The notes: a model not told the origin generated them from the sequence alone. Positions 447 to 60,220 are shown, counted from the stretch's first letter. The stretch is DNA of 64,000 nt from Rufibacter roseolus (GCF_017916365.1 NZ_JAFMSU010000003.1:744001-808000); one strand, 5' to 3'. Program-made: numbers and translations.

Positions 447-482
447 GTTTCAGGCCTGATTTCCTGGAAACAAGGCTAAAAC
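447..482. repeat. Intergenic dyad, copy 1
   Basis: GTTTCAGGCCTGATTT, then a short centre, then GGAAACAAGGCTAAAAC. The two halves are inverted, imperfect copies. It lies in the leader of the mlaE-like gene. Confidence 0.7.
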
Positions 483-559
483 TGCGAACCGATCCGCAAA
501 AGCGGGAACGTCCTTGCGGCGTATACGGCTATCGCTTTCCTTAACTCAAAAAGTTCGGG

Positions 560-567
560 CAAAATTA
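560..567 (-). promoter_or_regulatory. Bacteroidota -7 box TAatTTTG
   Basis: Exact match to TAnnTTTG on the minus strand, upstream of the mlaE-like gene. No good TTG -33 box is visible at 19-21 nt, so the call rests on the -7 box alone. Confidence 0.45.
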
Positions 568-794
568 CATCAAAAAGCCTGATGACCTATTAAAAAGGTT
601 GAGAGTTCTGGGCAAGAGCCAGATGCGTGTGAAATCTGGAAGTTATTTCTGGGCCACGGCCTAGAAAACTCTGCGTTCTGGCTATTCTGGGGCGGTTACC
701 ACATCCTGCCTCCCCATTCTAACGTTCTTTGAACTACCAGCTGCACCTAGTATCATTGCCGCACTTACTAACTTACGTTATACCAAAACGCAGT

Positions 795-1391
795 ATGAAA
801 ATCTGTTTTGCCTCAAACAATGCCCATAAACTAAAGGAAATCCAGCAGTTGCTGGGACCTCCCTTTGAACTCGTGAGCCTGGAAGACCTAGGCTGCACCC
901 AGGAACTGGCCGAGGACCAGGACACCCTGGAAGGCAATGCCCTGCAGAAAGCGTCTTACGTTTGGGAGCGGTACCATGTGATCTGTTTCGCGGATGATAC
1001 CGGGCTAGAGGTAGAGGCGCTCAACAACGAACCGGGGGTGTACTCGGCGCGGTACGCCGGCCCGGAGCGGGATAACCAGTCCAACATGCAAAAAGTGCTG
1101 GAGAACCTAAAAGGCCGAAGCAACCGCAAGGCCCGGTTCAGGACGTCCATCGCGCTTTTTTTGGAAGAAGGCGAACAGCACCTGTTCAACGGCATTGTTG
1201 AAGGACATATCAATGAAGAGCCCCGCGGCGAGCAGGGCTTTGGCTACGACCCCATCTTCGTGCCCGAGGGGCATGACCGCACCTTCGCCCAGATGAATAG
1301 TCAGGAGAAAAACCAGATCAGCCACCGGGGCCGGGCTGTGCAGCAATTGGTGTCCTTTCTGCAGCACCGCTATGTACAAACCGGTACCTAA
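795..1391 (+). CDS. rdgB: Non-canonical purine NTP pyrophosphatase (RdgB/HAM1)
   Basis: 198-residue cytosolic enzyme of the HAM1 family, which hydrolyses dITP, XTP and ITP to monophosphates and keeps deaminated purines out of nucleic acids. Visible signatures: SNNAHKLKE near residues 7-15 (NTP binding), FADDTGLEVEAL, NEPGVYSARYAG and GFGYDPIFVPEG near the C-terminus. The start at 795 is chosen because MKICFASNN matches the family N-terminus; an in-frame upstream extension from 729 adds 22 residues unlike the family. It is followed after 77 bp by the uridine kinase gene on the same strand, but that gene has its own -7 box, so co-transcription is uncertain. Confidence 0.95.
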   Translation: MKICFASNNAHKLKEIQQLLGPPFELVSLEDLGCTQELAEDQDTLEGNALQKASYVWERYHVICFADDTGLEVEALNNEPGVYSARYAGPERDNQSNMQKVLENLKGRSNRKARFRTSIALFLEEGEQHLFNGIVEGHINEEPRGEQGFGYDPIFVPEGHDRTFAQMNSQEKNQISHRGRAVQQLVSFLQHRYVQTGT

Positions 1392-1436
1392 AGAAATTCT
1401 TTTGAACATGCGTTAGGCTGCATGCACACAAATGGT

Positions 1437-1444
1437 TAATTTTG
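1437..1444 (+). promoter_or_regulatory. -7 box TAatTTTG upstream of udk
   Basis: Exact TAnnTTTG match, 24 nt before the udk ATG. The expected TTG -33 box is weak (TTA at 1413-1415, 21-nt spacing). Confidence 0.6.
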
Positions 1445-1468
1445 CACCCCGTAAACCCATACTTATTT

Positions 1469-2092
1469 ATGCATCAAAAGCCGTTCATTGTAGGAATTAC
1501 GGGAGGAAGCGCGTCAGGAAAAACCACATTCCTGAGCAGACTACTGGCTTCGTATGCACCTGAGGACATTTGCCTGGTGTCTCAGGACAATTACTATCAC
1601 GACCGCGACAAACAGTTCATAGACGAGAACGGCTTTCATAACTTTGATTTGCCCAGCTCTATTGACAGCGCCGCGTACGCCCATGACATCCTCCAACTAA
1701 GTAAAGGAGAGACCGTTTACCGCAAAGAGTACACTTTCAATAATCCAAACGTGGTACCCCGCCAACTGGAGTTCAAGCCGGCTCCCATTGTGGTGGTGGA
1801 AGGCATCTTTGTGTTCTACTTTGAGGAGGTAGCCAAACTCCTGGACATGAAGGTGTACATAGACGCCAAGGAGTACATCAAGCTACAGCGCCGCATCATC
1901 CGTGACAAGGTGGAACGCGGTTATGACTTGGACGATGTGCTTTACCGTTACACGAACCACGTGGCCCCTACCTATGAGAAATACATCAAGCCGTTTAAGA
2001 ACGATGCCGATGTGATCATCCCTAACAACCGCCATTTTGATGTAGGGCTGGATGTTCTGGTAACCTACCTGAACTCCAAGATTAAAAAATAA
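1469..2092 (+). CDS. udk: Uridine kinase
   Basis: 207 residues. Phosphorylates uridine and cytidine to UMP and CMP in pyrimidine salvage. The P-loop GGSASGKT is at residues 12-19, followed by SQDNYYHDRDK, the NFDLPSSID segment typical of uridine kinases, and VVVEGIFVFY as the Walker-B-like strand; the RRIIRDKVERGYDLDDVL helix and DVIIPNN near the end also match. The start at 1469 is preferred over the in-frame TTG at 1442, because that TTG is part of the -7 promoter box. A strong hairpin terminator follows at 2120. Confidence 0.95.
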   Translation: MHQKPFIVGITGGSASGKTTFLSRLLASYAPEDICLVSQDNYYHDRDKQFIDENGFHNFDLPSSIDSAAYAHDILQLSKGETVYRKEYTFNNPNVVPRQLEFKPAPIVVVEGIFVFYFEEVAKLLDMKVYIDAKEYIKLQRRIIRDKVERGYDLDDVLYRYTNHVAPTYEKYIKPFKNDADVIIPNNRHFDVGLDVLVTYLNSKIKK

Positions 2093-2119
2093 CCTTTTTC
2101 AAGCCCAAGGGCACTTATC

Positions 2120-2559: not shown

Positions 2560-2734
2560 CTTCCTGTTTTCCGGAACTTTACGCCTCACAAGGGCATTTA
2601 CCGGGTAAACTCCGCATTCTCTTTTTGGGTTATGCCTTGTGTTTTCTGATTCCTTTCTGGTTTTCAGGCCCTAAACGGCATTCCCAGCTGCTTATACTAT
2701 TATCATTCATTTTTATTTATCCATCTATTCACCA

Positions 2735-5965: not shown

Positions 5966-6001
5966 TGTTTTTAGCCCGACTCGAGGAAAACAGCCCTAAT
6001 A
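5966..6001. repeat. Intergenic dyad, copy 2
   Basis: TGTTTTTAGCCCGA, centre CTCGAGG, AAAACAGCCCTAATAG. It fits the shared pattern TTTTAGxCC ... GAAAxCAGxCCTA. Confidence 0.65.
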
Positions 6002-6178
6002 GGGATAAAGCGTGCTTGCCTCATCTGCTTCCATTTTCCAGGAAACCATGGGCAAAGGGAGGCTTGTTTTAGGGGATTGGGGCAGGAATTGGGAACTGAG
6101 CCCGGACTTGTGGCCGGTTTTTATTAAATTGCTTTTTTGCCATCTTCTGGTTCTTCCAGACTTACCCCTTTTAGGCTT

Positions 6179-7090: not shown

Positions 7091-7151
7091 AATCGCCCTT
7101 CTGGTTTCAGGCCTGTTTTGACAAAAAAGGCCTGAAACCAGAAGGGCGATT
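7091..7151. terminator. Bidirectional terminator with perfect 24-bp stem
   Basis: The arms at 7091-7114 and 7128-7151 are perfectly complementary and the ends read AATCGCC/GGCGATT, so the hairpin serves both converging genes. The inner part (7103-7139) is a perfectly paired copy of the intergenic dyad (GGTTTCAGGCCTGTTTT ... AAAAGGCCTGAAACC). Confidence 0.85.
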
Positions 7152-8773: not shown

Positions 8774-8810
8774 GCTTTTAGAACCATTTATTGAAAAATC
8801 GGCCCAAAAC
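8774..8810. repeat. Intergenic dyad, copy 3
   Basis: GCTTTTAGAACCATTTATTG then AAAAATCGGCCCAAAAC; the right half is closest to the consensus. Confidence 0.65.
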
Positions 8811-10491: not shown

Positions 10492-10550
10492 TAAAATGCC
10501 ATCGGCGGCTATCCAGCTTTAAGGGTTGGATAGCCGCCGATGGCATTTTA
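10492..10550 (+). terminator. Terminator of nupC with perfect 24-bp stem
   Basis: TAAAATGCCATCGGCGG... (10492-10515) pairs perfectly with 10527-10550, which ends in ATTTTA. The stem is unusually long, with only a weak T tail. Confidence 0.8.
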
Positions 10551-10579
10551 GGGCAGTTTTGGGTAAAAAGGCTTCAAAC
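10545..10579. repeat. Intergenic dyad, copy 4
   Basis: ATTTTAGGGCAGTTTT, GGGT, AAAAAGGCTTCAAAC; overlaps the last bases of the nupC terminator. Confidence 0.65.
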
Positions 10580-10627
10580 CAGAAAACAGCCTGATCCCTT
10601 TTTTGGATTATCTGGAAAAGAGGAACC

Positions 10628-13454: not shown

Positions 13455-13490
13455 GTTTTAAGCCGGTTTTACTTAAACCAGGCCCTAAAC
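13455..13490. repeat. Intergenic dyad, copy 5
   Basis: GTTTTAAGCCGGTTTTACTT then AAACCAGGCCCTAAAC. Lies between divergent nfu and antiporter genes. Confidence 0.7.
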
Positions 13491-14930: not shown

Positions 14931-15181
14931 GGATTTTGGATGTTATTTGGGGTTTGTTTAGCGGCTGATTTATGGAAATCGGCCTCCAAATTGATCTTGT
15001 TTTATAGGGACGGGTATGATTGATAGGTTCTTTGTAGGTACCTCCCGGTTGTTGCGGAGGAGCCGTTGGAGACAAGGCGGTGCCTGGTCTCTACAATCTG
15101 CAAATGTCAGAATGCGTGGACTGAGTGGTGTAAACCTACCCCTCCCAATAGAGGAATTCGGGAATGCGAGCCTCTTTCCCG

Positions 15182-15477: not shown

Positions 15478-15620
15478 TGAGCGCACGGAGCCCAGCTATG
15501 AAACAATTCAGCTTATGCACCAACGCAAACTGCCGCGCCACGCCAGCAAAAGCGGACTACGTAACCAGTGAAGCGGCTCCAGAAGATAGCTAACACGCTC
15601 AAAAACAAACTTTTGAAAAC

Positions 15621-15652
15621 AAAAAGGCCTGTCTTTCACAAAACAGGCCTTA
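15621..15652 (-). terminator. Terminator of aroC (dyad-related)
   Basis: On the minus strand AAGGCCTGT pairs with ACAGGCCTT and is followed by TTTGTTTTC. Sequence and size also fit the intergenic dyad family. Confidence 0.8.
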
Positions 15653-15658
15653 AACATA

Positions 15659-16738: not shown

Positions 16739-18168
16739 TTCCTCTTTAGTATGAAAATAAACGAAGCCACTCCCAGCAGCAGACCCAACACCACATTGGT
16801 GTAAAGGCGCACTTCCTTGAACTGGTCTATGCTGATGAGCTCATTGCTTTCTGTGGCGGCAATATTGTAAAAATCGCCCACATCTTGCGCCCTGATAAAA
16901 CTATTTTGGTCTTCCTGACCCCGTACCTGCACCGTAAGCGCCGGCCTTAGTGTATCATAACGGGCGGTGACGGGGTTGAAAAACACCCACTGGAACAACT
17001 CCTTCAAGGGGAACTCGCCCGCCTGGCGGCCCACAATGAAATACCGGAATGTCTTGTTTCCCACCAACCGGCCTTGGACCACTTGTTGGCTTTGCCGTAT
17101 CTCGGGGGAATAGATTTCCAGCTCGCTGGAGATACCCATGCTCTGCGGGGCCGGCAGGGTCCTGATGTTGCCTTCACCTTTGATGTTGAAATGGTACACC
17201 AGGTTCTGGTTAAGGGAAATGGTTTTGCGGGAAACCTGCTCTTCCAGGCGGAAAACGCCTACGGCCACTTGGTCCCGTAGCGGGTGCGGCGGCAATCCGC
17301 GTACGGTCACTTCTTTGCTCTGCGCCGAGTAGGTTTTGTTTTCCGGCAGCCGGTTCTGGGTGAGCAGCGAGGGATTTTTCGCGATCTTGTATTTGATCAT
17401 GCGCAGGCTCACCACCGGAAAGCGGAGCGACTGCGGTGTGATGGGAAACAGGATGGCCTCATACAGTTTGTAGCGGGTGAACGGCTTCTCCCCTATCTTG
17501 ATTTTCTCCGGGAGGATTTCCTCCTGCTGCACCACTTCCTCCAGGGTGCTCCGCTGTTTCAGTTGCCGCACAATGGTGCCTATCTGCGACTCAAACTCAA
17601 AGAAATCCAGCAGGCCCAGGTCGGCATCTGCTACGTAGAACCATAGCGAGACCGGTACCGCTTCCCCCACAAACACCTTTTCTTTGGGCACGTGCAGGGT
17701 AAGGAAGGCATTCTCTTTCACGTCTACAAACTCGGGCGCAGCCGCGCTGATAGGTACAGGAGCGGCCGAACTATCTTTCGGAACCGGACCCGCAGGCGCC
17801 GATGGTCCCACCTTCACCTTAACACCCGGTACCGGCACGTTTTTACCGTCTACCACCAGCGTGAAGGGCTTCACGGTGACCTCTCCTTCCTTGAGCGGGG
17901 CATATTGCTGGGTAAGCGTGTAGACCATAGAGGTCTTGGTGCCTCTGGTTATGGTGGTGGTAAAGGATTTCTGGGTGCTTTTTTGCAAGCCTTCAATCTC
18001 TGGGAATCCTTCAACTTTGGCCGGCCGTACGCCAGGCGACTTTAAAGAAATAGTGAAATATTGGTCAATGGGGATAGCGGTAGGGCCAAATTCTACGGTA
18101 TGGCCCTGCGCGCTGCACCAGGCAGCCCAGGCCATAAACCATAGAAAGAAGATAACCGCCTTTTTCAT
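16735..18168 (-). CDS. batD: BatD-family protein
   Basis: 477 residues. Signal peptide [21 protein letters not shown] (about 1-21); a large periplasmic region of beta-rich segments ([56 protein letters not shown]); and one C-terminal membrane anchor [17 protein letters not shown] followed by KRK. This matches BatD, usually part of the Bat (aerotolerance) operon of Bacteroidota, where it works with the VWA-domain proteins BatA and BatB. Here BatA/B/C/E are not adjacent and the gene runs into aroC. A minus-strand TActTTTG box lies at 18214-18221. The exact role is not settled. Confidence 0.88.
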
Positions 18169-18213
18169 CTGTTTTCTTTAAAACGGCCCTAAAAAGCCGT
18201 CTTTTAATTTTTA

Positions 18214-19214: not shown

Positions 19215-20063
19215 ATGAATATCTTCAATATACTAAAAGAGGTAGAGAAAGTAGATCCGGAAATATTTGACCGCATTGATCCGCGCCGCGAAGTCTTCAA
19301 ACACTTCGGTGGGTTCGGGAAGAAACTGGCTGCTGCCGCTATTCCTATCGCCTTCGGATCTATGCTGAACAAAGCCTACGGACAGACAGCCGCCAACCCA
19401 TCGGTGAGAGAGGTACTTGAGTTTGCGCTGTTGCTGGAAAACCTGGAATACCACTTCTACCTTAGAGCCGCTGCCACAGACATTTTCCCAAGTGCCGCCG
19501 GGAAAACCGCTTTCGGGGTCATCCGCGACCATGAAAAAGCGCACGTAGACTTCTTGCGGGCCGCTATCTCAGGCATGGGCGGCGCTGCCCCCACCACCTA
19601 CACCGATGCCAGCTTTGACTGGACCGCCAATGGCTTGTTGGGTAATGCCACCTTCACCAGCTATCCAACCATGCTGGCAGTAGCCCAGGCCTTTGAAGAC
19701 ACCGGGGTAAGAGCCTACAAAGGAGCCGCTCCGGCCCTTATGAGCAACGACACCGTTTTGCAGGCTGCCCTGCAGATCCACTCGGTAGAGGCGAGACATG
19801 CCGCGCACCTGCGCCGTATGCGCCGCGACATGACCAATGGCGTGGCTGGCCTCAAACCATGGATTACCATGAAGGACAGAGGCGGACTTCCGGCCGAGTT
19901 CCAGGGAATCTATGACGGTGAGGAAAACACTACCCAGGCCACCGTGAACATCACCGGTACCTTCGGCGGGATCACGATTGATGCCAATGCTGCTTCAGAG
20001 GCCTTTGATGAGCCATTGACTGTGGCCCAGGTGAATGCAATTGTAATGCCTTTTATTGCTTAA
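19215..20063 (+). CDS. Second exported ferritin-like domain protein
   Basis: 282 residues, paralogous to the gene just upstream. An unusual N-terminus (DPRREVFKHFGGFGKK) is followed by a hydrophobic segment AAAAIPIAFGSML and KAYGQTA, which may be a variant Tat signal without a lipobox. ENLEYHFYLRAA, HEKAHVDFLRAAI and VEARHAAHLRRM supply the same ligand pattern as the first protein. In the C-terminal third both proteins share an LTPAQV/LTVAQV motif. The two are expected to be co-transcribed and exported. A terminator follows at 20079. The role, perhaps metal or redox stress, is inference. Confidence 0.85.
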   Translation: MNIFNILKEVEKVDPEIFDRIDPRREVFKHFGGFGKKLAAAAIPIAFGSMLNKAYGQTAANPSVREVLEFALLLENLEYHFYLRAAATDIFPSAAGKTAFGVIRDHEKAHVDFLRAAISGMGGAAPTTYTDASFDWTANGLLGNATFTSYPTMLAVAQAFEDTGVRAYKGAAPALMSNDTVLQAALQIHSVEARHAAHLRRMRRDMTNGVAGLKPWITMKDRGGLPAEFQGIYDGEENTTQATVNITGTFGGITIDANAASEAFDEPLTVAQVNAIVMPFIA

Positions 20064-20078
20064 TTTATTTAAATTATA

Positions 20079-20118
20079 CAAAAACAGGCCGGGCTTGTAC
20101 AAGTTCGGCCAGTTTTTG
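20079..20118 (+). terminator. Terminator of the ferritin-like operon
   Basis: CAAAAACAGGCCG pairs with CGGCCAGTTTTTG (one mismatch), with an inner GCTTGTACAAG stem. Confidence 0.85.
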
Positions 20119-20442: not shown

Positions 20443-21381
20443 GAAAGGCGCGGGCTCAGTGGCCACAAAGTGCAGGTTGCGGGTAAGCCCGTCAAACCCT
20501 GTCCGTTTCACCGCCGATTTTCTGAAAACATCCTTAAACACCTCCTGGGTTAGCTCCAGCCAATCGGTTTTGGAAAGGTGGAGCAACTCTGGATGGGGCG
20601 CGAAGGCCGGCTCACGGTGCGCTTTGCTGAAACGGTTCCAGGGGCAGACATCCTGGCAGATGTCGCAGCCAAATACCCAATTCCCAAATTTCCCCTCCAC
20701 TTCCTGCGGAATCTGGTCTTTCAGCTCAATGGTGAAATAAGAGATGCACTTGCTGCCGTCTACTACGTACGGCTGTGAGATAGCATCTGTGGGGCATGCA
20801 TCCATGCATTTGGTACAGGTACCGCAATAGTCTTTGATGGGCCCATCAGGTTCCAGTTCCAGGTCCAGGATGAGCTCCGCGATGAAAAAGAAACTGCCCA
20901 CCCCTGGCCGGATGAGGTTGCTGTTCTTGCCTACCCAGCCCAGCCCGCTCTTCTTCGCCCAGACCTTGTCCATAACCGGCGCAGAGTCCACAAACACGCG
21001 TCCGCCCACCTCGCCAATCTCCTCCTGAATGTAATTGAACAGCGTTTTAAGCTTGTCTTTGATCACGAAGTGGTAATCCTGGCCGTAGGCGTACTTGGAA
21101 ATCTGGAATGTTTCCTGAGACTGGGTTTCCTCAGGGTAATAATTCAGCAGGAGGCTCACCACCGATTTGGCACCCTCCACCAATAAGCGCGGGTCCAGAC
21201 GCTTTTCAAAATGGTTGGCCATGTAGTGCATCTGGCCGTGCATGTTCTGGTTGAGCCAATTCTCCAGCCGGGGCGCCTCCTCCTCCAAAAAATCAGCCTT
21301 AGACACACCACAGTACATAAAACCCAGTTCCTGGGCTTTCTGCTTGATGAGTAGGGTATGCTTTGGGGCAAGATTGAACAT
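20407..21381 (-). CDS. queG: Epoxyqueuosine reductase
   Basis: 324 residues. It reduces epoxyqueuosine to queuosine in the wobble base of certain tRNAs, using a cobalamin and two 4Fe-4S clusters. The cluster motifs are [16 protein letters not shown] and [13 protein letters not shown]. The N-terminal half has [17 protein letters not shown] and the [13 protein letters not shown] block of QueG, and the middle has [20 protein letters not shown], where the Asp is the family's proposed proton donor. Length is normal. The gene overlaps the small plus-strand gene at its 3' end. A CAatTTTG box at 21411-21418 is the nearest promoter-like site. Confidence 0.95.
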
Positions 21382-21450: not shown

Positions 21451-21488
21451 GCGTTAAGGGTGCGTTTCTGGGAAAATAGGCGCAAAAC
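21451..21488. repeat. Intergenic dyad, copy 6
   Basis: GCGTTAAGGGTGCGTTTC, TGG, GAAAATAGGCGCAAAAC. Lies between divergent queG and the RidA-like gene. Confidence 0.65.
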
Positions 21489-22132: not shown

Positions 22133-22233
22133 GCACATACATTTTCAAGTACTATTACCTCATAGTGAGCGCAGCTCCTACGAGTAGTGTCTTCCGTTTC
22201 TAGCCTGTTATCACCTAAATAGCCTAATAACGG

Positions 22234-23277: not shown

Positions 23278-23565
23278 GTGTAAAATCTCTTAGCAGTCTA
23301 AGCAAAGATTCAGATGTAAAGATAACAGCTATCTGCCTAAAAACGCTCCATTGTTGGTGTAAAAAGCCATCTTTTTGCTACTATTTTTACCAAGCCCAAT
23401 CAACTAATCTAATTATTTTAGCAAAAACGTTTCTTCCTTACTTTCTCATATTTAGACTAAAAACAGAAAAGGCAGCCACGTTCCCGCAACTACCTTCTCT
23501 AAGATTTTTAATGCTGGTTTGTTAATAGATGAAACCAACACATTAGCATGGCTTTGCTCCTCAAC

Positions 23566-25364: not shown

Positions 25365-25401
25365 CGTTTTAGGGCTCTTTTCAGGAAATCAGGGCAGAAA
25401 C
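25365..25401. repeat. Intergenic dyad, copy 7
   Basis: CGTTTTAGGGCTCTTTTC, AG, GAAATCAGGGCAGAAAC. Between two minus-strand genes; no other terminator candidate is visible after the transglutaminase gene. Confidence 0.75.
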
Positions 25402-26430: not shown

Positions 26431-26465
26431 ATTTTAGGTCGATTTTTATGAAAAGGGCTTAGAAG
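26431..26465. repeat. Intergenic dyad, copy 8
   Basis: ATTTTAGGTCGATTTTTATG, AAAAGGGCTTAGAAG; its right end overlaps the stop codon of the TonB receptor gene. Confidence 0.65.
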
Positions 26466-28894
26466 CGCAGGCTGATCTGGGCCATGAAGTTGCGGGGTGC
26501 CTGCGGGAAATAGTAGTTATAGTCATAACGGTTGGTGTCTCCGGCGTACAGCTCGGTGAAGGTGTAGCCATTGGCTTCATACTCTTCGTTGAAGACGTTG
26601 TTCACCAATAGGCCCAGTTCCACTTCTTTCATCCAGTTCACCGGTCTGAAACGGTAGAACACGCGGGCATCGCCTACTTCGTAAGGACGGATGCGGCGGT
26701 TCTGGCTGGCGGTGTTGTCCAGGAACTGCTCACTCACGGTCTTGAACTGAAATGCGAACCGAAGGCCAGTCAAAGGCTGCACCTCCAGCTGGGTGGAAGT
26801 CACAAAACTGGGCGAGTAGGCGATGGTGGTCTCGTCATACTGATTTACCACCACATCCTCGGGGTTGTAGTCAATGGGCAGGGTCTCGGTGAACTGCTTG
26901 ATGCGGTTGCGGCTCAGGGAGAAGTTGGTAGACAGACGGGCCAAATCACCCAGACCCACGCCGGCGGCCAACTCTGCACCGGTGCGATAGCTTTCCGGAA
27001 TGTTCGTTCTGAGCGCCGTTCCTACGTTGTTCACCTGACCGGTCAGCACCAACTGGTCTTTATAGTCCATGTAGAAGTAGGTAAGATCGGTGGTAAAGCG
27101 CAGCGGCAGGCCGTTCAGCTCTCCCAGGGGGTAGTTCAGGCGGTAACCGGCCTCGTAGTCGATCATGCGCTCTGCCTTGGCTCTATCGTTGGCCGGACGG
27201 TCCACAAAGTCTGAGCGGGTGGGCTCACGGTGACCTACCGCTACCGAGGCATACAGGCTGTTCTGGTCTGAAAAGGCGTAAGTGATGCCCGCTTTGGGGT
27301 TGAAGAACCGGTAATCGGCACGGGTGGTGACGTCGCGCTGGTCATCATCAATGCCGTTCACCTTGTAATCTACTCTGCGGAGCTGCAGATCCCCGAAGAG
27401 GCTGAGTTTCTCGGTGGCTTGGAGCGTGGCCTTGCCATACACGTTGAAATCAGTTTTCTGGGCATCGCCCTCATAGTAGCGGTGGCGTGGCCGGATGGTG
27501 GAAGCGTACTGCGCCCAGATCACTTCCCCGAAGTGGTCTCCGGTATAGCGGTTCCAACCTCCGCCCAGCACCGCCGAGAGTTTGCCCTGCCCGTTGTACT
27601 GCAAGGAGAAAGTGCTGCCGTAGAAATCGTTGTCCAACCATTTGCGGCTTACTAGGTCGGTGCGAGTGATAGCTACTCCACCTGCCGTCACCGGCGGAAT
27701 GTTGTAGTTGGTGAGGCGTTCGTTCACCTTGAACTGCTCATAGAACCCGAAGCCACGGGTATAGTGCAGGGCAGCGTTCAGGGTAAGGGCCCGGCTGAAC
27801 TCGTGGGCGTAGTGTAGTTGGTAATGGTACTGCTGGTAGTCGTCTACCTCGTTGTCATACGGGATATCGGTGCTGCCGTAATCGGTACCGGCGGAGTTGA
27901 AGGTGCGGTCAGTTTTCAGGGTCTCCTCGTCTACCCCGTTCCAGGCCTGGTAGGTGACTTCATGGCCGCCAAACACCACCAGTTTAAGCAAGTCCTTGGC
28001 TCCATAGTAGCCCCCAGACAGGTAGAAGGACTTCAGGTTAGAGGAAGCCCGGTCAATGTAGCCATCTGAGGTGATTCTTGATAAGCGCCCGTCCACGGCG
28101 AATTTGCCGCCCAGCAGGCCGGTTCCAAACTGCACGTTGTTTTTCCAGGTGTTGTAAGAACCATAGGCGTTGTCGGTGCGGGCGTAGGCTTCGGGGCTGG
28201 CATCCTGGGTCTGAAGGTTCAGGCTGGCGCCGAAGGCTCCCGGTCCGTTAGACGAGGTACCCACGCCGCGCTGAATCTGCACATCCTGCAGAGAAGAGGC
28301 GAAATCTGGCATGTTCACGAAGAAAACGCCGTGGCTTTCGGCATCATTCACCGGAATACCGTTCACCGTCACGTTGATGCGGGTGATGTCTGAGCCCCTG
28401 ATGCGCATGCTGGTGTAGCCCACGCCGGCGCCGGCATCTGAGTTGGTCACCAGCGAAGGCGTGTTTTCCAGCAGATAAGGCAGATCCTGCCCAAAATTGC
28501 GGCTCTCTAGTTCCTGTTTGCCCACGTTGGTGTAGGTGGTTCCGGTTTTCTCATTGGCGCGGGTGGCAGTCACCAGTACTTCTTTGGTAGCCACGCTGGT
28601 GCGGGTAAGGCTGAAGTCCAGCGGCTGGGACGCGGGTACGGTGACTGCCTGGGTGGCACTGGCGTAGCCCAGGTAGCTGATCTGCAGGTTGTAATCGCCG
28701 GCGGGCAGGTTGGAGAAGTTGAATCGGCCGGAGGCATCTGTGAGGGTGGCGCGGTTGCCGGTACCCAATGTGACGGTGCTACCGGTAAGCGGAGCCTGGG
28801 TGGCAGCATCTACTACGCGGCCAGACAAAGTGTTCTGTGCCATGGCAAACCAAGGCAGCAGGCAGCCCAAGAGCAGGGCTAAAGCTTTTTTCAT
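26459..28894 (-). CDS. TonB-dependent outer-membrane receptor, likely for thiamin
   Basis: 811 residues. Signal peptide MKKALALLLGCLLPWFAMAQ; an N-terminal carboxypeptidase-regulatory-like beta domain (LSGRVVDAATQAPLTGSTV through GDYNLQISYLGYASA, about 22-100); a plug domain (TNVGKQELESRNFGQDLPYLL, RGSDITRINVTVNGIPVND); then a 22-strand-type barrel ending in FMAQISLRF with the terminal Phe. It imports a ligand through the outer membrane using TonB energy. The TPP riboswitch in its leader (28972-29048) makes thiamin or a precursor the likely ligand. No inner-membrane thiamin transporter gene follows. The start at 28894 is chosen for the signal peptide. Confidence 0.93.
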   Translation of the reverse strand: MKKALALLLGCLLPWFAMAQNTLSGRVVDAATQAPLTGSTVTLGTGNRATLTDASGRFNFSNLPAGDYNLQISYLGYASATQAVTVPASQPLDFSLTRTSVATKEVLVTATRANEKTGTTYTNVGKQELESRNFGQDLPYLLENTPSLVTNSDAGAGVGYTSMRIRGSDITRINVTVNGIPVNDAESHGVFFVNMPDFASSLQDVQIQRGVGTSSNGPGAFGASLNLQTQDASPEAYARTDNAYGSYNTWKNNVQFGTGLLGGKFAVDGRLSRITSDGYIDRASSNLKSFYLSGGYYGAKDLLKLVVFGGHEVTYQAWNGVDEETLKTDRTFNSAGTDYGSTDIPYDNEVDDYQQYHYQLHYAHEFSRALTLNAALHYTRGFGFYEQFKVNERLTNYNIPPVTAGGVAITRTDLVSRKWLDNDFYGSTFSLQYNGQGKLSAVLGGGWNRYTGDHFGEVIWAQYASTIRPRHRYYEGDAQKTDFNVYGKATLQATEKLSLFGDLQLRRVDYKVNGIDDDQRDVTTRADYRFFNPKAGITYAFSDQNSLYASVAVGHREPTRSDFVDRPANDRAKAERMIDYEAGYRLNYPLGELNGLPLRFTTDLTYFYMDYKDQLVLTGQVNNVGTALRTNIPESYRTGAELAAGVGLGDLARLSTNFSLSRNRIKQFTETLPIDYNPEDVVVNQYDETTIAYSPSFVTSTQLEVQPLTGLRFAFQFKTVSEQFLDNTASQNRRIRPYEVGDARVFYRFRPVNWMKEVELGLLVNNVFNEEYEANGYTFTELYAGDTNRYDYNYYFPQAPRNFMAQISLRF

Positions 28895-32388: not shown

Positions 32389-32419
32389 AACGCCTCCCAA
32401 TGATCTGGGAGGCGTTTTG
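32389..32419 (+). terminator. Terminator after the DUF6799-like gene
   Basis: AACGCCTCCCA pairs with TGGGAGGCGTT around ATGATC, followed by TTGTTT. A degenerate dyad continues to 32453. Confidence 0.88.
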
Positions 32420-32466
32420 TTTATATGGCGTTTTCCAGAAATCAGCCTTAAATCAATTTTTCAGAA

Positions 32467-33530: not shown

Positions 33531-33566
33531 GCTTTTGCCCGCATCTTTCAAAAACGGCCCCAGAAC
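33531..33566. repeat. Intergenic dyad, copy 10
   Basis: GCTTTTGCCCGCATCTTTC, AAAAACGGCCCCAGAAC. It ends 32 bp before the -7 box of the symporter gene. Confidence 0.65.
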
Positions 33567-33706: not shown

Positions 33707-35086
33707 ATGAAAAAATCCACGCTCGCCATCTCGGCTTTTGTGATTCTCACGGTGGCTGTTGTGCTCACGTTGTGCCAGAACTACGGCCTTCTCTCTCTCC
33801 CCGAAGTAGCCCTGACCGGTATCCGCTGGGTGGGTATTGCAGTGCTCCTGCTGTTTGCCCGCCAGAAGAAATCCCTCACTACCTGGATTCTGGTGAGCAT
33901 GGTGGTAGGCGCTGAGATAGGCTACTCTTTCCCTGATTTCGCACAGGGCCTGAATGTTTTAAGCAAGATTTTCCTGAAGATGGTGAAAACCATCATCGCG
34001 CCGCTCATTTTCGCTACGCTGGTGGTGGGCATTGCCGGTCACTCTAACCTGAAACAGGTGGGCAAGATGGGCGTGAAGGCCCTGGTCTACTTTGAGATTG
34101 TGACCACCATTGCCCTTTTCATTGGGTTGGCCGCTATTAACCTGAGCCGCGCCGGCGATGGTATCCAGCTAAAAGGCCAGACCAGCAGCGAGATCACCGC
34201 GCCGCCCGCCCAGACCTGGCAAGACATCATTCTGCACATCTTCCCGGAGAACATCGCCAAATCGGTGGCCGAGGGGCAGGTATTGCAGATTGTGGTGTTC
34301 AGCGTGCTCTTCGGGATTGCTCTGGCTATGCTGAATGAGCGTAAGCGCCGCCCGTTGCTGGAAGTAACCGAGAGCCTCGCGGAGACCATGTTCAAGTTCA
34401 CCAACATCATCATGTTCTTCGCGCCTATTGCGGTGGGTGCTGCCATCGCCTACACCGTGGGCCACATGGGCTTCGGGATTCTGGTGAACCTCTTCAAACT
34501 GCTGGCTACGCTGTACGTGGCGCTCATCGCGTTCCTGCTTTTAGTATTACTGCCTGTAGCGTTGATCTTTAGAATTCCGGTGAAAATGTTTGTGCAGGCC
34601 ATCGCTGAGCCGGTGTCCATTGCCTTCGCTACCACCAGTTCTGAGGCCGCTCTGCCGCGCGCCATGGAAGCAATGGAATCTATTGGCGTACCGCGCAAGA
34701 TTGTGGCGTTTGTGATGCCCATGGGCTACAGCTTCAACCTGGACGGTTCTACCCTGTACCTGTCACTGGCGTCTATCTTCGTGGCGCAGGCCGCCGGTAT
34801 TGAGATGCCTTGGGAGCAGCAGTTGTTGATGGTTTTCACCCTGATGTTGACGAGTAAAGGGATTGCTGGGGTGCCGCGTGCCTCTTTGGTGATTCTTTTG
34901 GGTACAGCAGCGTCTTTCAACCTGCCGGTAGAGCCTATCTTCATCATCCTGGGCATTGACGAACTCATGGACATGGCCCGGACCTCGGTAAACGTGATCG
35001 GGAACTGTCTGGCCACCGCTGTCATCGCCCGCTGGGAAGGTGAGTTCGTGGACCTGGAGGCACCAAGAGCGCTGGAGACTGTCTAA
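33707..35086 (+). CDS. Dicarboxylate/amino acid:cation symporter (DAACS family)
   Basis: 459 residues. FLKMVKTIIAPLIFATLVVGIAG and the two hairpin-loop signatures, TTSSEAALPRAMEAMESIG (serine-rich HP1) and FNLDGSTLYLSLASIFVAQAAG (TM7 motif), place it with the GltP/DctA sodium- or proton-coupled importers of glutamate, aspartate or C4-dicarboxylates. LTSKGIAGVPRASLVIL is the HP2 loop. Two extra N-terminal hydrophobic segments (MKKSTLAISAFVILTVAVV and GIAVLLLFA) precede the core. It is probably monocistronic; the substrate cannot be assigned more precisely. Confidence 0.92.
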   Translation: MKKSTLAISAFVILTVAVVLTLCQNYGLLSLPEVALTGIRWVGIAVLLLFARQKKSLTTWILVSMVVGAEIGYSFPDFAQGLNVLSKIFLKMVKTIIAPLIFATLVVGIAGHSNLKQVGKMGVKALVYFEIVTTIALFIGLAAINLSRAGDGIQLKGQTSSEITAPPAQTWQDIILHIFPENIAKSVAEGQVLQIVVFSVLFGIALAMLNERKRRPLLEVTESLAETMFKFTNIIMFFAPIAVGAAIAYTVGHMGFGILVNLFKLLATLYVALIAFLLLVLLPVALIFRIPVKMFVQAIAEPVSIAFATTSSEAALPRAMEAMESIGVPRKIVAFVMPMGYSFNLDGSTLYLSLASIFVAQAAGIEMPWEQQLLMVFTLMLTSKGIAGVPRASLVILLGTAASFNLPVEPIFIILGIDELMDMARTSVNVIGNCLATAVIARWEGEFVDLEAPRALETV

Positions 35087-35760: not shown

Positions 35761-35761
35761 G

Positions 35762-35797
35762 CGTTTCAGGCCTGTTTAAGCCAAAAAGCCCTGAAAC
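35762..35797. repeat. Intergenic dyad, copy 11
   Basis: CGTTTCAGGCCTGTTTAAGCC, AAAAAGCCCTGAAAC; both arms nearly complementary. Starts 2 bp after the preceding stop codon. Confidence 0.75.
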
Positions 35798-35880: not shown

Positions 35881-35915
35881 GTTTTATGGCCATTTAATGA
35901 AATGGAGCGCAAAAG
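35881..35915. repeat. Intergenic dyad, copy 12
   Basis: GTTTTATGGCCATTTAAT, GAAATGGAGCGCAAAAG. Confidence 0.65.
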
Positions 35916-36040
35916 CCTGGTGAATGCCTTGTCTTTTTAAGCATGATTTTTTAAAAGGACCTTAAAATGGAAATTCTGCCTCTCCGCACCAGGTCAGTAC
36001 CTGGGTTCCCAGATAAGCGAAAATTAAGCTTAACGGTGCC

Positions 36041-37846: not shown

Positions 37847-37883
37847 CGTTTTACCTCTGATTTTAACAAAGCGGCCTTAAATC
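37847..37883. repeat. Intergenic dyad, copy 13
   Basis: CGTTTTACCTCTGATTTTA, ACAAAGCGGCCTTAAATC; its right half forms the left arm of the following terminator. Confidence 0.65.
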
Positions 37884-37920
37884 ACGCTACAGGTGGGGTG
37901 ATTTAAGGCCGCTTTGTTAA
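37863..37920 (+). terminator. Terminator of MFS gene with 23-bp stem
   Basis: TTAACAAAGCGGCC... (37863-37885) pairs perfectly with 37898-37920, followed by TTTTACC. Confidence 0.88.
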
Positions 37921-37956
37921 TTTTACCTCAAATTCCACCGCTTTTCACCTAAATCA

Positions 37957-39985: not shown

Positions 39986-40022
39986 GGTTTCGGGGCTGAT
40001 TTTCAAAAATCAGCCCCGAAAT
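39986..40022 (+). terminator. Hairpin after pulA, perfect copy of the intergenic dyad (copy 14)
   Basis: GGTTTCGGGGCTGATTTT, CA, AAAATCAGCCCCGAAAT: fully paired arms although the sequence differs from other copies, i.e. compensatory changes. It probably ends the pulA transcript. Confidence 0.75.
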
Positions 40023-40140: not shown

Positions 40141-40177
40141 GTTTTCAGGCCGATTTATAGGAAACTGGCTTAAAATG
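40141..40177. repeat. Intergenic dyad, copy 15
   Basis: GTTTTCAGGCCGATTTATAG, GAAACTGGCTTAAAATG; 72 bp before the M16 peptidase gene. Confidence 0.75.
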
Positions 40178-43313: not shown

Positions 43314-43351
43314 GGTTTTAGGTCCGTTTCCAAGATTTCGGCCCCAAAACC
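43314..43351. repeat. Intergenic dyad, copy 16
   Basis: GGTTTTAGGTCCGTTTCCAA, GATTTCGGCCCCAAAACC. Confidence 0.65.
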
Positions 43352-45867: not shown

Positions 45868-45881
45868 TGTATGCAGGTTGA

Positions 45882-45916
45882 TTCTCAGCCCGATTTTCTA
45901 AAAACAGCCTTAAAAC
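45882..45916. repeat. Intergenic dyad, copy 17
   Basis: TTCTCAGCCCGATTTTCTA, AAAACAGCCTTAAAAC; ends only 3 bp before the ATG at 45920. Confidence 0.7.
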
Positions 45917-46904: not shown

Positions 46905-46941
46905 CGTTTTAAGCCTAAAAATCAGAAAGGACCTTGAAAAT
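46905..46941. repeat. Intergenic dyad, copy 19
   Basis: CGTTTTAAGCCTAAAAATCA, GAAAGGACCTTGAAAAT. Confidence 0.6.
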
Positions 46942-52024: not shown

Positions 52025-52061
52025 ATTTAAAGGCTGTTTTCAGAAAACAAGGCCCAAAACG
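52025..52061. repeat. Intergenic dyad, copy 21
   Basis: ATTTAAAGGCTGTTTTCA, GAAAACAAGGCCCAAAACG. Confidence 0.7.
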
Positions 52062-52669: not shown

Positions 52670-52981
52670 GGTATCCTCTGGCTCATACCGCCCTATCAGA
52701 ATCCATTTTTTGCCAAAGCTGTTTTCATAGTTTTTTCAGATAACTGAGCCTGAAACAGGATTGGATTGCCACGGCTGTAAAACAGGTCAACTTTGTTGGC
52801 CAGGGTTGGAGTTCAAAAATCCCACATCCGTCCTTATCAACGAGTGGCCAGTTACCGCTCCAAAAGGCAAGGAAATGCTAAGCCTGTTTACTGCCCTTTC
52901 TGATTTCCCTGACCGGCGGATATATGTTTTTGGGCTACTTTTGGGAAAGCGGCTCTATAACAGCTCAGCTTGTTTCCCCAG
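52670..52981. other. Intergenic region upstream of the methyltransferase
   Basis: About 310 bp. It contains a degenerate dyad (about 52707-52756) and a -7 box (52936-52943); nothing else is clear. Confidence 0.5.
52936..52943 (+). promoter_or_regulatory. -7 box TActTTTG upstream of methyltransferase
   Basis: Exact TAnnTTTG match, 38 nt before the ATG; the -33 box is not visible. Confidence 0.5.
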
Positions 52982-53653
52982 ATGCAGCCAAGCCCAACTC
53001 CAGACTTCAACTTTATCGCGCCGGTGTATGATGCCCTGGCGCAGCTGGTCTATGGCAAAGCGCAGAAGCAGGCGCAAGCGCATTTCCTTCCCTTGATTCC
53101 GGAGGGGGGGCGGGTGCTGGTTCTGGGCGGTGGCAGCGGCTGGATTCTACCCGAACTCCTGCGCCAAAGCCAACCCAGCCAGGTGCTGTTCCTTGAGTCC
53201 TCTGCCAGAATGCTACAGCAGGCCAAAAAAAGATTCCCCCAAACATCGGTTCAGGACAAGGTGGAATTCCGGCTAGGCACCGAGGCTGACCTTCGGCCCG
53301 AGGAGAGATTCCAGGCGGTGCTCACGCCTTTCGTGCTGGACCTTTTCCCTCCCGAGACAGCCCTTACCATGATGCAGCGGCTGGACCAGGCCCTGCTCCC
53401 TGCCGGCCTCTGGCTCCACACCGATTTCCGGTTAAGCATCTCCCCTACCCAGAGACTCTGGCAGAAACCCATGCTGTGGGCCATGTACCGGTTCTTCAGG
53501 GCAGTCAGTGACATCCCGGCCAAAGGCTTGCCGCCGTTTGAGGCGCTTTTCGCAAAACTGGGCTATAAACCCTGGCAGCAGGCCTTCTTCTTCCAAAACT
53601 TCATCTGCGCCCAGGTTTACCAGAAGCCAGGCTCCCCTGCCCAAGACAACTAA
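52982..53653 (+). CDS. Class I SAM-dependent methyltransferase
   Basis: 223 residues. The SAM-binding motif I is RVLVLGGGSGWILPELL, with the acidic residue of motif II in VLFLESSARMLQQAKKR; the remainder (LTPFVLDLFPPETALTMM) follows the Rossmann pattern. The substrate is unknown. The start at 52982 (MQPSPTPDFNF) is preferred to the TTG at 52970. The C-terminal third is helical and Phe-rich (LFAKLGYKPWQQAFFFQNF). It is followed after 63 bp by the M61 peptidase gene. Confidence 0.87.
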   Translation: MQPSPTPDFNFIAPVYDALAQLVYGKAQKQAQAHFLPLIPEGGRVLVLGGGSGWILPELLRQSQPSQVLFLESSARMLQQAKKRFPQTSVQDKVEFRLGTEADLRPEERFQAVLTPFVLDLFPPETALTMMQRLDQALLPAGLWLHTDFRLSISPTQRLWQKPMLWAMYRFFRAVSDIPAKGLPPFEALFAKLGYKPWQQAFFFQNFICAQVYQKPGSPAQDN

Positions 53654-55986: not shown

Positions 55987-56022
55987 GTTTCAGCCCCGCT
56001 TTTCAGAAATCAGGCTTGAAAC
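55987..56022. repeat. Intergenic dyad, copy 22
   Basis: GTTTCAGCCCCGCTTTTCA, GAAATCAGGCTTGAAAC. Confidence 0.75.
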
Positions 56023-58440: not shown

Positions 58441-58492
58441 GCCCCTGCGCTTTGGGCCTGTTTTACAGAAAACAGGCCCAAAGCGCAGGGGC
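58441..58492 (+). terminator. Terminator with perfect 24-bp stem (dyad copy 23 at its core)
   Basis: GCCCCTGCGCTTTGGGCC... (58441-58464) pairs perfectly with 58469-58492 around ACAG, followed by TTGTTGTTTG. The inner TTTGGGCCTGTTTT ... AAAACAGGCCCAAA is the dyad with fully paired arms. Confidence 0.88.
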
Positions 58493-58512
58493 TTGTTGTT
58501 TGTCCCGGAACT

Positions 58513-58549
58513 GGTTTTGCGGCTCTTTTCCCGAAAGCAGGCCTAAAAC
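58513..58549. repeat. Intergenic dyad, copy 24
   Basis: GGTTTTGCGGCTCTTTTCCC, GAAAGCAGGCCTAAAAC; ends 14 bp before the -7 box at 58564. Confidence 0.75.
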
Positions 58550-58563
58550 AGCTTTCTTCCGTG

Positions 58564-58571
58564 TACTTTTG
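58564..58571 (+). promoter_or_regulatory. -7 box TActTTTG upstream of second SSS gene
   Basis: Exact TAnnTTTG match, 70 nt before the GTG start; no TTG at the ideal -33 distance. The leader holds a 14-bp-period repeat of ATTCTTAATTCC (58605-58630). Confidence 0.6.
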
Positions 58572-58641
58572 CGCAGGCAATTCCCCACGGTATAGCCTCA
58601 TGTAATTCTTAATTCCCGATTCTTAATTCCTAATTCTCCCA

Positions 58642-60102
58642 GTGTCTCCTCTGCTTATCCTCGGCATCATTGTCGCTTATTTCTGCTTGTTGCTGGCCGT
58701 TTCCTTTATAACCAGTAAGAAAGGCGAGTCAACGACCGCTTTCTTTTTAGCCAACCGTGAGTCGCCGTGGTACGTGGTGGCGTTTGGCATGATCGGGACT
58801 ACGCTCTCGGGCATCACGTTTGTGTCCATTCCTGGTATGGTGGAAAAATCGGGGTTCACGTACCTGCAGATGGTGCTGGGCTATGCGCTAGGGTACCTGG
58901 TAATTGGGCTGGTGCTGCTGCCGCTGTATTATCGGCTGCAATTGGTTTCCATCTACACGTACCTGGAGCAACGGCTGGGATTCTGGTCTTACAAAACCGG
59001 CAGCGCCTTCTTCCTGCTCTCGCGTACCATGAGCGCGGCATTGCGGCTGTACCTGGTGGCCGGCGTGCTGCAGTTGGCGGTATTTGGGCCGCTGGGCATT
59101 CCGTTTGCGGGCACAGTGGGCATTACCATCGCGTTCATATGGGTGTACACGTTCAGGGGCGGCATGAAAACCATCATCTGGACCGATACCTTTCAGACCC
59201 TGGCCATGCTCCTGTGCCTGGGCATCTGCATCTGGGTTGTTTCTGAGGAACTGCAACTTTCCTTTACCGGTATGACCGAGGCCATAGGGCAGAGCAAATA
59301 TGCCCAGGTATGGGTTTGGGACGCCAAAGCGCCTAATTTCCTCCTGAAGCAGTTAGTGGCCGGAGCTTTCATCACCATTGCCATGACGGGGCTAGACCAG
59401 GACATGATGCAGAAGAACCTGAGTTGCCGCAACCTGCCCGAGGCCCAGAAGAACATGTTCTGGTTCACGGTGATTCTACTGGTGGTGAACCTTCTGTTCC
59501 TGATCCTGGGTGCCCTTCTCTACTTCTACGCAACCAAAAAAGGAATCCTGCTGCCCAGCAAAGGAGACGATGTCTTCCCTGAGCTGGCCCTGCGTCATTT
59601 CCCGGTTGTAGCTGGGATAGCCTTCATTCTAGGCATCACGGCCATCACCTACGCCTCGGCAGACTCGGCGCTCACCTCACTCACTACCGCTTTCTGCGTG
59701 GATTTCCTTCATTTCCAGCATCGGCCGGAGGCCCAACGCATCCGCTATAAAAACTGGGTGCACCTGGCTTTCTCGGGATTGCTGATGGTGGTGATCCTGC
59801 TCTTCAGGCTGTACAACGACGAAAGCATCATCGCCACGCTTTTCACGCTGGTGGGCTACACCTATGGCCCCTTGCTGGGCATGTACAGTTTCGGGCTGCT
59901 GACCAAGCGTACGGTGCAAGACAGGTTGGTGCCGGTGTTTGGCGTGTTGTCTCCGGTGCTCACTTATGTGATCAGCGCGAACTCGCAGGAGTGGTTTTGG
60001 GGCTACCAGTTTGGCTTTGAGGTGCTGCTTTTGAACGGCCTGCTCATGTTTTTGGGCCTATGGTTGGTATCTGCCCGTAAAACTGCTCAGAAAGGCCTTT
60101 AA
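58642..60102 (+). CDS. Sodium:solute symporter (SSS family), paralog 2
   Basis: 486 residues, starting at GTG. It aligns along its length with the upstream paralog: SKKGESTTAFFLANRESPWY, LVSIYTYLEQRLGFWSYKTG, FRGGMKTIIWTDTFQTLAML and GITAITYASADSALTSLTTAF. Both probably carry related solutes with Na+ and arose by tandem duplication. The N-terminus (MSPLLILGIIVAYFCLLLAV) matches the paralog's (MSSTLILGIIAAYFCILILI), which supports the GTG start. Separate -7 boxes suggest separate expression. Confidence 0.92.
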   Translation: MSPLLILGIIVAYFCLLLAVSFITSKKGESTTAFFLANRESPWYVVAFGMIGTTLSGITFVSIPGMVEKSGFTYLQMVLGYALGYLVIGLVLLPLYYRLQLVSIYTYLEQRLGFWSYKTGSAFFLLSRTMSAALRLYLVAGVLQLAVFGPLGIPFAGTVGITIAFIWVYTFRGGMKTIIWTDTFQTLAMLLCLGICIWVVSEELQLSFTGMTEAIGQSKYAQVWVWDAKAPNFLLKQLVAGAFITIAMTGLDQDMMQKNLSCRNLPEAQKNMFWFTVILLVVNLLFLILGALLYFYATKKGILLPSKGDDVFPELALRHFPVVAGIAFILGITAITYASADSALTSLTTAFCVDFLHFQHRPEAQRIRYKNWVHLAFSGLLMVVILLFRLYNDESIIATLFTLVGYTYGPLLGMYSFGLLTKRTVQDRLVPVFGVLSPVLTYVISANSQEWFWGYQFGFEVLLLNGLLMFLGLWLVSARKTAQKGL

Positions 60103-60182
60103 CCCCATTTCATTAAGCTGCGGAAGTCAGGAGTATTGGCTACCTTTGCAGGTTGCTTTCCAAGATTAAGCAGATTTGTTCC

Positions 60183-60220
60183 AGTTTTAGCCCTACTTTC
60201 TTCAAAACCGGCGTAAAACG
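60183..60220. repeat. Intergenic dyad, copy 25
   Basis: AGTTTTAGCCCTACTTTCTT, CAAAACCGGCGTAAAACG. Confidence 0.65.

Follow-up and report, generated by a model that had tools for sequence, protein, structure and literature searches.

The 64,000-nucleotide stretch of the Rufibacter roseolus genome analysed here (G000:C3:744001-808000, part of the 5.5-Mb genome G000; hereafter the window) is punctuated by a 36-bp dyad, GTTT-N9-TTT-N4-AAA-N9-AAAC, whose arms each contain an RGSC-type block and which recurs at about 65 copies per 100 kb in this genome. The dyad is restricted to the genus Rufibacter, being not above chance level in the sister genera, and occupies about one site in each promoter-free intergenic region with room for it. 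Its TTT/AAA positions are under purifying selection, and its copies are largely vertically inherited, fall into species dialects and are scarce on two plasmids. We lean towards interpreting it as the duplex recognition site of a putative sequence-specific, two-fold symmetric Rufibacter protein (a dimer or tetramer), serving as a chromosome-specific boundary or architectural element; the latter role is suggested to us by the one-per-region placement, the avoidance of promoters and the restriction to the chromosome.

An earlier model-generated description of the window (the original prediction) had placed a ~37-bp imperfect dyad at 32 coordinates, and each of these reads as a dyad or a degenerate version of one. 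A matrix iterated on 400 kb of G000, including the window, gives 14 bits or more for 30 of the 32, those at 46496 (11.5) and 39948 (10.4) falling below, and recovers 13 further window copies, several of them weak. At a threshold of 12 bits this matrix finds 266 copies in the 400 kb against a mean of 6.3 in three shuffles; such controls are somewhat favourable, as the matrices were trained on the same genomes that were later scanned, while the fixed-pattern controls used below for the family and order counts are free of this bias. An outside symmetric consensus (GTTTTAGGCCTGTTTT-N2..6-AAAACAGGCCTAAAAC), built from the text of the original prediction and the exact copies of relatives, gives 46 places in the window with at least 20 of 32 matches against a mean of 3.65 in 20 first-order Markov shuffles, and 30 places with at least 22 matches against 0.1. 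The recurrence reported earlier therefore stands, but its spacing of one copy per ~2.4 kb was too wide, the density being nearer one per 1.5 kb, and the centre, given as 2-5 nt, is mostly 4 nt (243 of 271 copies in G000, with learned gap weights). That the copies lie almost only between genes holds broadly: 186 of the 243 G000 copies with 14 bits or more lie in the intergenic 22% of the DNA, with gene calls made by our own codon-usage script and not by a standard gene finder.

Each arm follows the consensus GTTT(T)nRGSCYRTTTT. Several species show a tendency towards YNNR at the centre and TTYC in the flank, and the two-fold symmetry extends over some 40-42 bp. Strong inverted half-site pairs in four tight-dialect genomes are separated by exactly 4 nt in 42/45, 37/40, 53/53 and 135/139 cases, with at most three everted and at most one direct pair per genome. 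Isolated half-sites occur at about the shuffled frequency in five genomes, the largest excess being 22 against 13 in G000 at 14 bits. As lone half-sites are not clearly enriched and the spacer is rigid, the whole dyad is most likely the functional unit.

Most copies are not RNA hairpins, their arms pairing little or no better than chance. Across the 266 copies, pairing at the core arm positions is no more frequent than would be expected of independent arms. When right arms were permuted among copies in five genomes (G000, G005, G006, G007 and G021), the permuted arms paired as well as or better than the observed ones in G005, G007 and G021, and after copies with at least 14 pairs were set aside no genome lay above permutation, a selection that itself lowers the observed value. 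In repetitive extragenic palindromes (REPs), G-T pairing is taken as a sign of transcription in the section of PMC3733652 used here. On the coding strand of 271 oriented dyad sites G-U mismatches number 306 against 285 A-C mismatches (p 0.41), with comparable figures near stop codons (203 vs 184) and in copies with at least 13 pairs (44 vs 34, p 0.31).

A minority of perfect palindromes is distinct from this majority. Copies with all 16 pairs exceed the permuted expectation in G006 (24 vs 2.5), G021 (9 vs 3.0), G005 (5 vs 2.3) and G007 (2 vs 0.4), as do copies with at least 15 pairs in G000 (12 vs 0.4), and in many perfect palindromes the pairing continues into the flanks, whose sequence varies among copies. 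Copies with at least 15 pairs are commoner in same-strand or convergent gaps (70/380) than in divergent ones (3/53; p 0.018). Among same-strand cases, TTTT lies within 25 nt downstream of 25/60 copies with at least 14 pairs and of 24/130 others, the corresponding upstream figures being 20/60 and 39/130. The paired stem followed by a T-run that typifies intrinsic terminators is lacking in most copies and present in part of the well-paired minority, which seems to have been co-opted for intrinsic termination. A fold-based terminator test, comparing the gene direction with the opposite one, gave weak support (35 vs 26 of 60 well-paired copies; 49 vs 45 of 130 others), and the surroundings of imperfect copies show no terminator asymmetry.

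With respect to genes, dyads avoid coding DNA and roughly the 100 bp before start codons. Intergenic copies make up 45/48, 146/161, 37/44 and 58/60 in four tighter-dialect species; G000 has 57 coding copies, which is nevertheless more than the 3 found in one shuffle of the whole 400 kb. The distribution of dyads over regions was assessed against 500 resamplings, leaving out the 100 bp ahead of each start and capping regions at a length of 600. In G000, 139 of 196 eligible regions are occupied against 95.8 expected (largest resampling 110), and the counts in G005 (35/47 vs 22.3), G006 (112/187 vs 81.5), G007 (29/41 vs 19.1) and G021 (43/51 vs 28.5) each lie above every resampling. This evenness had first been resampled ignoring promoters, in which form G000 pairs closer than 300 bp numbered 33 against 67.5 expected, and it held once promoter regions were excluded. 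Occupancy over all regions of at least 40 bp is 47-70%; eligible regions within 600 bp of each other have a lower overall occupancy (39/75). A preference for 3' ends seen at first shrank after promoter avoidance was modelled, leaving a modest surplus in the 50 bp nearest the stop codon in same-strand gaps longer than 300 bp (19 vs 9.7).

Comparison with G004, the closest relative of G000 among the genomes compared, shows that the copies stay in place. Of the 43 window copies, 33 are alignable across the dyad, 8 are uncovered and 2 are without a match; in 31 of the 33 a G004 dyad of at least 14 bits lies within about 60 bp of the aligned place. No dyad insertion is seen, and indels within the dyad are of at most 1 nt in the 33 alignments. 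There is thus no sign of dyad mobility, and a mobile miniature inverted-repeat transposable element (MITE) was rejected for want of insertion polymorphism against G004; among more distant species presence varies. The TTT/AAA positions of 22 gap-free intergenic dyads are 92.4% identical between the two genomes, against 77.3% for the noncoding flank (p 1.5e-9). Some sites are retained far more widely: a dyad is kept before gene 52172 in 14/15 species compared, and is present in the gap before gene 45920 in 12/12 and before gene 52982 (at least one) in 14/14. The gap before gene 37957 has one in 8/11. The left edge of the dyad before gene 45920-46462 lies 31-45 nt upstream of the start in 11 species and 99 nt in G006.

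The genome-wide system proposed in the original prediction is borne out, and it extends to all 16 of 16 Rufibacter genomes. Samples of 55-454 kb from each hold 37-76 copies per 100 kb against 0-2.5 in shuffled sequence, with 12.2-21.5 bits per half-site; by extrapolation, each chromosome would hold some 1,800-4,200 of them. An exact-architecture pattern gives 186-1561 matches in each of the 16 genomes and 0-3 in each of 84 genomes of other genera of the family (any in 14/84; reversed control 0-2). A stricter pattern is present in 16/16 Rufibacter genomes, matches once each in 4/134 rest-of-family genomes and is found in 0/287 genomes outside the genus in an order-wide sample; a dyad-pattern scan of named genomes returned 94 stretches, all 94 of them from Rufibacter. 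In a de novo search for gapped inverted words (80 kb each) top scores were 3.5-7.0 in five sister genera and 14-29 in four tight-dialect Rufibacter, but only 6.6 in G000, and because of this last value the search cannot exclude loose dyads in sister genera; the genus restriction rests on the pattern counts.

Within the genus the arms have diverged, the consensus being GTTTAGGGGCTGTTTT in G005, GTTTTTGGCCTGTTTT in G007 and G020 and GTTTTCGGGCTCATTT in G021. When copies from a syntenic block were scored with matrices trained elsewhere in each genome (10 of the 16 species tabulated, 3-8 sites each), they fitted the matrix of their own species best in 6/10; those of G020 fitted its sister G007 best, and those of G001, G010 and G002 fitted the matrix of another species. 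Relaxed-dialect genomes (12-16 bits per half-site) cluster apart from tight-dialect ones (18-22 bits) in a midpoint-rooted 8-gene tree of all 16 genomes. Under this midpoint root, the code may have loosened once.

The scarcity of the dyad on plasmids rests on two of them, identified as such by their Rep_3 initiators and ParA-like ATPases (Pfam), with 6 dyads in 155 kb (3.9 per 100 kb) and 7 in 235 kb (3.0 per 100 kb, near the shuffled level of 2.7); the chromosomes of these two species hold 58 and 60 per 100 kb. The 155-kb plasmid (G021:C2; L182, L228-L234) has, from its translations, conjugation-type genes and a resistance-nodulation-division (RND) metal-efflux-like cluster. A small separate contig, L181 (G009:C3, 7.5 kb, with a lower GC of 0.44), bears three dyads; by eye its genes look chromosomal (dihydroorotase- and glycosyltransferase-like). 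A strong copy is also present in one contig piece from IMG/VR that is phage-like judged by its translations.

The dyad thus combines symmetric half-sites, fixed spacing, independent arms and conserved contacts, as operators do, with exceptions considered below. If it is bound as we suggest, each protomer would read the central T-tract, the RGSC-type block one helical turn out, the outer T-tract and a weaker YC flank. With the T-tracts about 3.5 and 15.5 bp and the block about 10 bp from the axis, the geometry would align a minor, a major and again a minor groove on the same side of the helix. About one site would be kept per chromosomal intergenic region with space away from promoters, where the bound protein might separate adjacent transcription units and organise the nucleoid; some copies might have turned into perfect palindromes, with stems that are extended and often followed by a T-run, and double as intrinsic terminators. 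More tentatively, this might constitute a chromosome-marking system of Rufibacter without earlier description, in which a dedicated putative DNA-binding protein, acquired or respecialised in the ancestor of the genus, binds two-fold sites of 36-42 bp in their thousands, about one to each roomy intergenic region and hardly any on plasmids, its shifting specificity driving the sites to change dialect in place.

Several observations weigh against the interpretation as a protein-bound boundary or architectural site. No binding protein was found, HU being the one candidate class tested: 8/8 Rufibacter genomes searched have one full-length HU, as in the sister genera, with one extra weak partial match in G007, and no extra member. 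An HU/IHF architectural site was rejected, there being no dedicated HU-family member in these 8 genomes. Information of up to about 20 bits per half-site goes far beyond the needs of a nucleoid protein. In same-strand gaps longer than 300 bp placement is near uniform once promoter avoidance is modelled, and a 3'-end role is therefore not demonstrated; a kilobase spacing rule was rejected, as occupancy does not fall beside an occupied neighbouring region. Between G000 and G004, positions 7-10 (78.4% identity) and positions 5-6 with the centre (74.4%) change about as fast as the flank. The dyads are unevenly conserved within the genus, the gap 48332-48395 (site 48349) having one in 3/13 species and several other window gaps in zero species or one weak case, so that over longer times sites also come and go. 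In G006 a 20-kb stretch, L171, is without any dyad; its translations, read by eye, are rich in PAS sensor kinases and include one serine-recombinase-like gene, and it is possibly an acquired island. Strong half-site pairs are less rigid in G000 (162/260 at 4 nt, 51 at 3 and 24 at 5), which may reflect register slip in the T-runs. Finally, some pairing excess is seen at positions 5-6 and the first flank bases in the 266 copies, and mean pairing exceeds permutation in G006 (12.24 vs 11.84, sd 0.08) and G000 (9.33 vs 9.10, sd 0.09); we ascribe these excesses to the perfect-palindrome minority.

Of the three options offered by the original prediction, the binding site is the best supported, by the largely independent arms, the lack of strand asymmetry, the rigid spacer and the selection on TTT/AAA; the RNA hairpin applies to the minority of perfect palindromes and not to most copies, and the REP-like element fails in several tested features. 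A bound protein might also act as a roadblock terminator, halting RNA polymerase from either direction at the ends of transcription units, an account that we consider unlikely but worth taking seriously. Gaps of 120-200 bp are occupied in 25/28 convergent, 72/114 same-strand and 5/31 divergent cases, in five genomes the median distance of convergent copies to the nearer stop codon is 24.5-42.5 bp, and a single symmetric site could serve two converging genes. However, promoter avoidance alone accounts for most of the placement in long gaps, 16/28 divergent gaps longer than 400 bp are also occupied, and plasmid genes do without the dyad; ends with a dyad are no poorer in predicted intrinsic terminators (0.43 vs 0.31), a test weakened by its reversed controls (0.38 and 0.24). 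It is considerably less probable that a transcribed stem-loop is the functional form of the dyad in general. The excess of perfect palindromes with complementary flanks, and the more frequent TTTT downstream of copies with at least 14 pairs, are what a hairpin or intrinsic terminator would lead one to expect, but most copies are imperfect, show no G-U excess over A-C even with at least 13 pairs and have no terminator asymmetry around them, and the fold-based test barely separates the two directions. The perfect-palindrome minority, with its extended stems and more frequent T-run, does resemble repeat-built intrinsic terminators such as the uptake signal sequence (USS) pairs treated in portions of PMC5217627, from which the majority of dyads differ in having neither a good hairpin nor T-run asymmetry.

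Spread of the dyad as a REP-like or MITE-like mobile repeat, by a REP-associated tyrosine transposase (RAYT) or another transposase, is the account to which we give the least credence. REPs of Escherichia coli are less dense than the Rufibacter dyads. REPs and bacterial interspersed mosaic elements (BIMEs) are described in passages of PMC3733652 as 20-40 bp palindromes of high copy number, extragenic and mostly between same-strand and convergent genes; the dyad agrees in palindrome size, copy number and mainly extragenic position in same-strand and convergent gaps, and Y1_Tnp matches occur in 13/14 Rufibacter genomes searched. But these transposases do not track the dyad, being not found in G007 (607 architecture matches) and present in 38/46 sister-genus genomes without a dyad array, and there are no insertions between G000 and G004, the shared positions also disfavouring mobility; the two plasmids are hardly invaded. 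In contrast to the GTAG- or CGTC-tagged, RAYT-associated REPs and BIMEs, the dyad has no one-sided tag or G-U bias, and forms evenly spread single units at shared orthologous positions with species dialects. Neither tag is found in the flank consensus (TTYC-like, with both ends folded together), a lack that is not decisive by itself, since TnpA_REP subclasses with atypical, untagged structures are on record in Bacteroidetes in the parts of PMC6006769 consulted. Alternatively, the dyad could be a self-recognition site under molecular drive, comparable to the DNA uptake sequences (DUS) of Neisseriaceae, with biased uptake and recombination maintaining copies by the thousand in the dialect of each species and foreign DNA left unmarked; we regard this as improbable. 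The DUS word is short and asymmetric and is also found alone. The thousands of copies, the species dialects and the scarcity on plasmids do parallel the DUS, for which an atypical distribution in mobile elements is described in the parts of PMC3630211 and PMC7371117 consulted, and a ComEC-type competence protein is present in 31/31 genomes of the family searched, Rufibacter included. The depletion in mobile elements typical of a DUS is seen on the two plasmids, yet not in the phage-like contig piece. The Rufibacter unit differs in being the full 36-bp two-fold dyad, without clear enrichment of single half-sites, and in avoiding coding DNA, and no type IV pilus ATPase (PF00437) scored above cut-off in 6/6 Rufibacter genomes searched. 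Membership among DUS was rejected, neither the sufficiency of a single word (in five genomes) nor the pilus machinery (in the six searched) being apparent.

The favoured interpretation, a site for a symmetric chromosomal binding protein, finds its nearest parallels among sites that organise the nucleoid or chromosome, such as the IHF sites at 3'-end reiterative ihf BIME (RIB) repeats, matS and parS; IHF reportedly binds to repeats at 3' ends. The dyad is like these in being chromosomal, sequence-specific and symmetric or architectural, and differs in its thousands of copies, its 12-21 bits per half-site, the lack of an extra HU member and a binder that is putative. The original prediction recognised no described family, and we found no published description in the literature searched, which left subscription journals mostly outside it. 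To our knowledge, few bacteria have one sequence element that punctuates most intergenic regions. Being genus-restricted, concentrated on chromosomes, under selection and split into dialects, the dyad makes Rufibacter a natural experiment in the rise and drift of a genome-wide protein-DNA code. If the boundary or architectural role is correct, the dyad would represent a punctuation system in bacteria with a scope like that of uptake sequences, and the absence of dyads could flag foreign DNA in Rufibacter genomes.

Table 1. Dyad copies in the window, with matrix scores or arm pairing and intergenic calls by our script; "new" marks copies absent from the original prediction, and the last column gives the relation to G004 or other species.
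Coordinates	Feature	Score or pairing	Setting and remarks	Comparison
447..482	dyad	34.5 bits	intergenic	common to G004
2641..2676	weak dyad	15.5 bits	intergenic, possibly chance	G004 only 12.3
5967..6002	dyad	24.6 bits	intergenic	no G004 alignment
7104..7138	near-perfect palindromic dyad	15/16 pairs, +13 flank pairs	3-nt centre, convergent genes	common to G004
8775..8810	dyad	25.0 bits	divergent genes	common to G004
10545..10580	dyad	28.4 bits	convergent genes	common to G004
13455..13490	dyad	36.0 bits	divergent genes	common to G004
14956..14991	dyad	29.7 bits	intergenic, new	outside G004 alignment
15620..15655	dyad	18.8 bits	degenerate left arm	G004 ortholog 41.8
18160..18195	dyad	30.8 bits	divergent intergenic	common to G004
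20051..20086	weak dyad	15.1 bits	possibly chance	G004 only 13.2
20505..20540	dyad within called gene	25.9 bits		common to G004
21453..21488	dyad	25.0 bits	divergent intergenic	outside G004 alignment
22196..22231	dyad	27.6 bits	convergent intergenic, new	outside G004 alignment
23429..23464	dyad	18.7 bits	intergenic	common to G004
25366..25401	dyad	37.1 bits	intergenic	outside G004 alignment
26431..26466	dyad	25.2 bits	intergenic	common to G004
29508..29543	dyad	27.7 bits	intergenic	common to G004
29644..29679	dyad	24.9 bits	intergenic, new	common to G004
31725..31760	dyad	31.6 bits	intergenic	common to G004
32419..32454	dyad	30.2 bits	convergent intergenic	outside G004 alignment
33531..33566	dyad	19.6 bits	divergent intergenic	common to G004
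33956..33991	weak dyad within called gene	15.8 bits	possibly chance	
35763..35797	dyad	13/16 pairs	3-nt centre	common to G004
35881..35916	dyad	20.7 bits	intergenic	common to G004
35934..35968	dyad	25.3 bits	intergenic, new	common to G004
37848..37883	dyad	29.4 bits	intergenic, gap before gene 37957	common to G004
37900..37934	weak dyad	14.8 bits	possibly chance	
39987..40022	near-perfect palindromic dyad	15/16 pairs	GGGGC/GCCCC variant	
40141..40176	dyad	31.8 bits	intergenic	no G004 alignment
43315..43350	dyad	28.5 bits	intergenic	dyad in gap in 4/4 compared species
45881..45916	dyad		directly before start of gene 45920-46462	
46906..46941	weak dyad	16.6 bits		
48349..48384	dyad	25.7 bits	intergenic	G000, G004 and G001 only
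52025..52060	dyad	33.9 bits	divergent genes	19-27 nt from same gene in 14/15 species
52721..52756	dyad	18.1 bits		G004 ortholog 31.9
52926..52961	dyad		left arm contains TACTTTTG	
53535..53570	dyad within called gene	23.6 bits		common to G004
55987..56022	dyad	34.0 bits	in short doubtful open reading frame	common to G004
58449..58484	perfect palindromic dyad	16/16 pairs, +9 flank pairs	followed by TTGTTGTTTG	common to G004
58514..58549	dyad	37.4 bits	second copy in gap of 58449 dyad	common to G004
60184..60219	dyad	32.9 bits	intergenic	common to G004
60890..60925	dyad within called gene	19.4 bits		common to G004

Two of the tabulated copies call for comment. The perfect dyad at 58449 and the TTGTTGTTTG after it are possibly used as an intrinsic terminator, and TACTTTTG in the dyad at 52926 matches the -7 promoter element of Bacteroidetes, TAnnTTTG. 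The gap that holds the two dyads at 58449 and 58514 separates tandem duplicated genes (56952-58424 and 58642-60102), 69-73% identical over the reported stretches.

The window also contains other repeats. A second interspersed repeat of about 165 bp (46603-46790) recurs at more than 10 other places in G000 and at several places in other Rufibacter (G003, G004, G005 and G010 among them), at about 70-83% identity. A repeat of the CCCCTCC...GGAGGGG type is present in four copies (5834-5859, 10624-10649, 15133-15158 and 29553-29578), a nearly perfect 29-bp palindrome (ACCTCACAGGTTTT/AAAACCTGTGAGGT) in two (15311-15339 and 22102-22130), and a 41-bp inverted repeat with GTCATCCTGAAAGGATCTTG lies at 55714-55823. 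A thiamine pyrophosphate (TPP) riboswitch is located at 28956-29053 on the minus strand.

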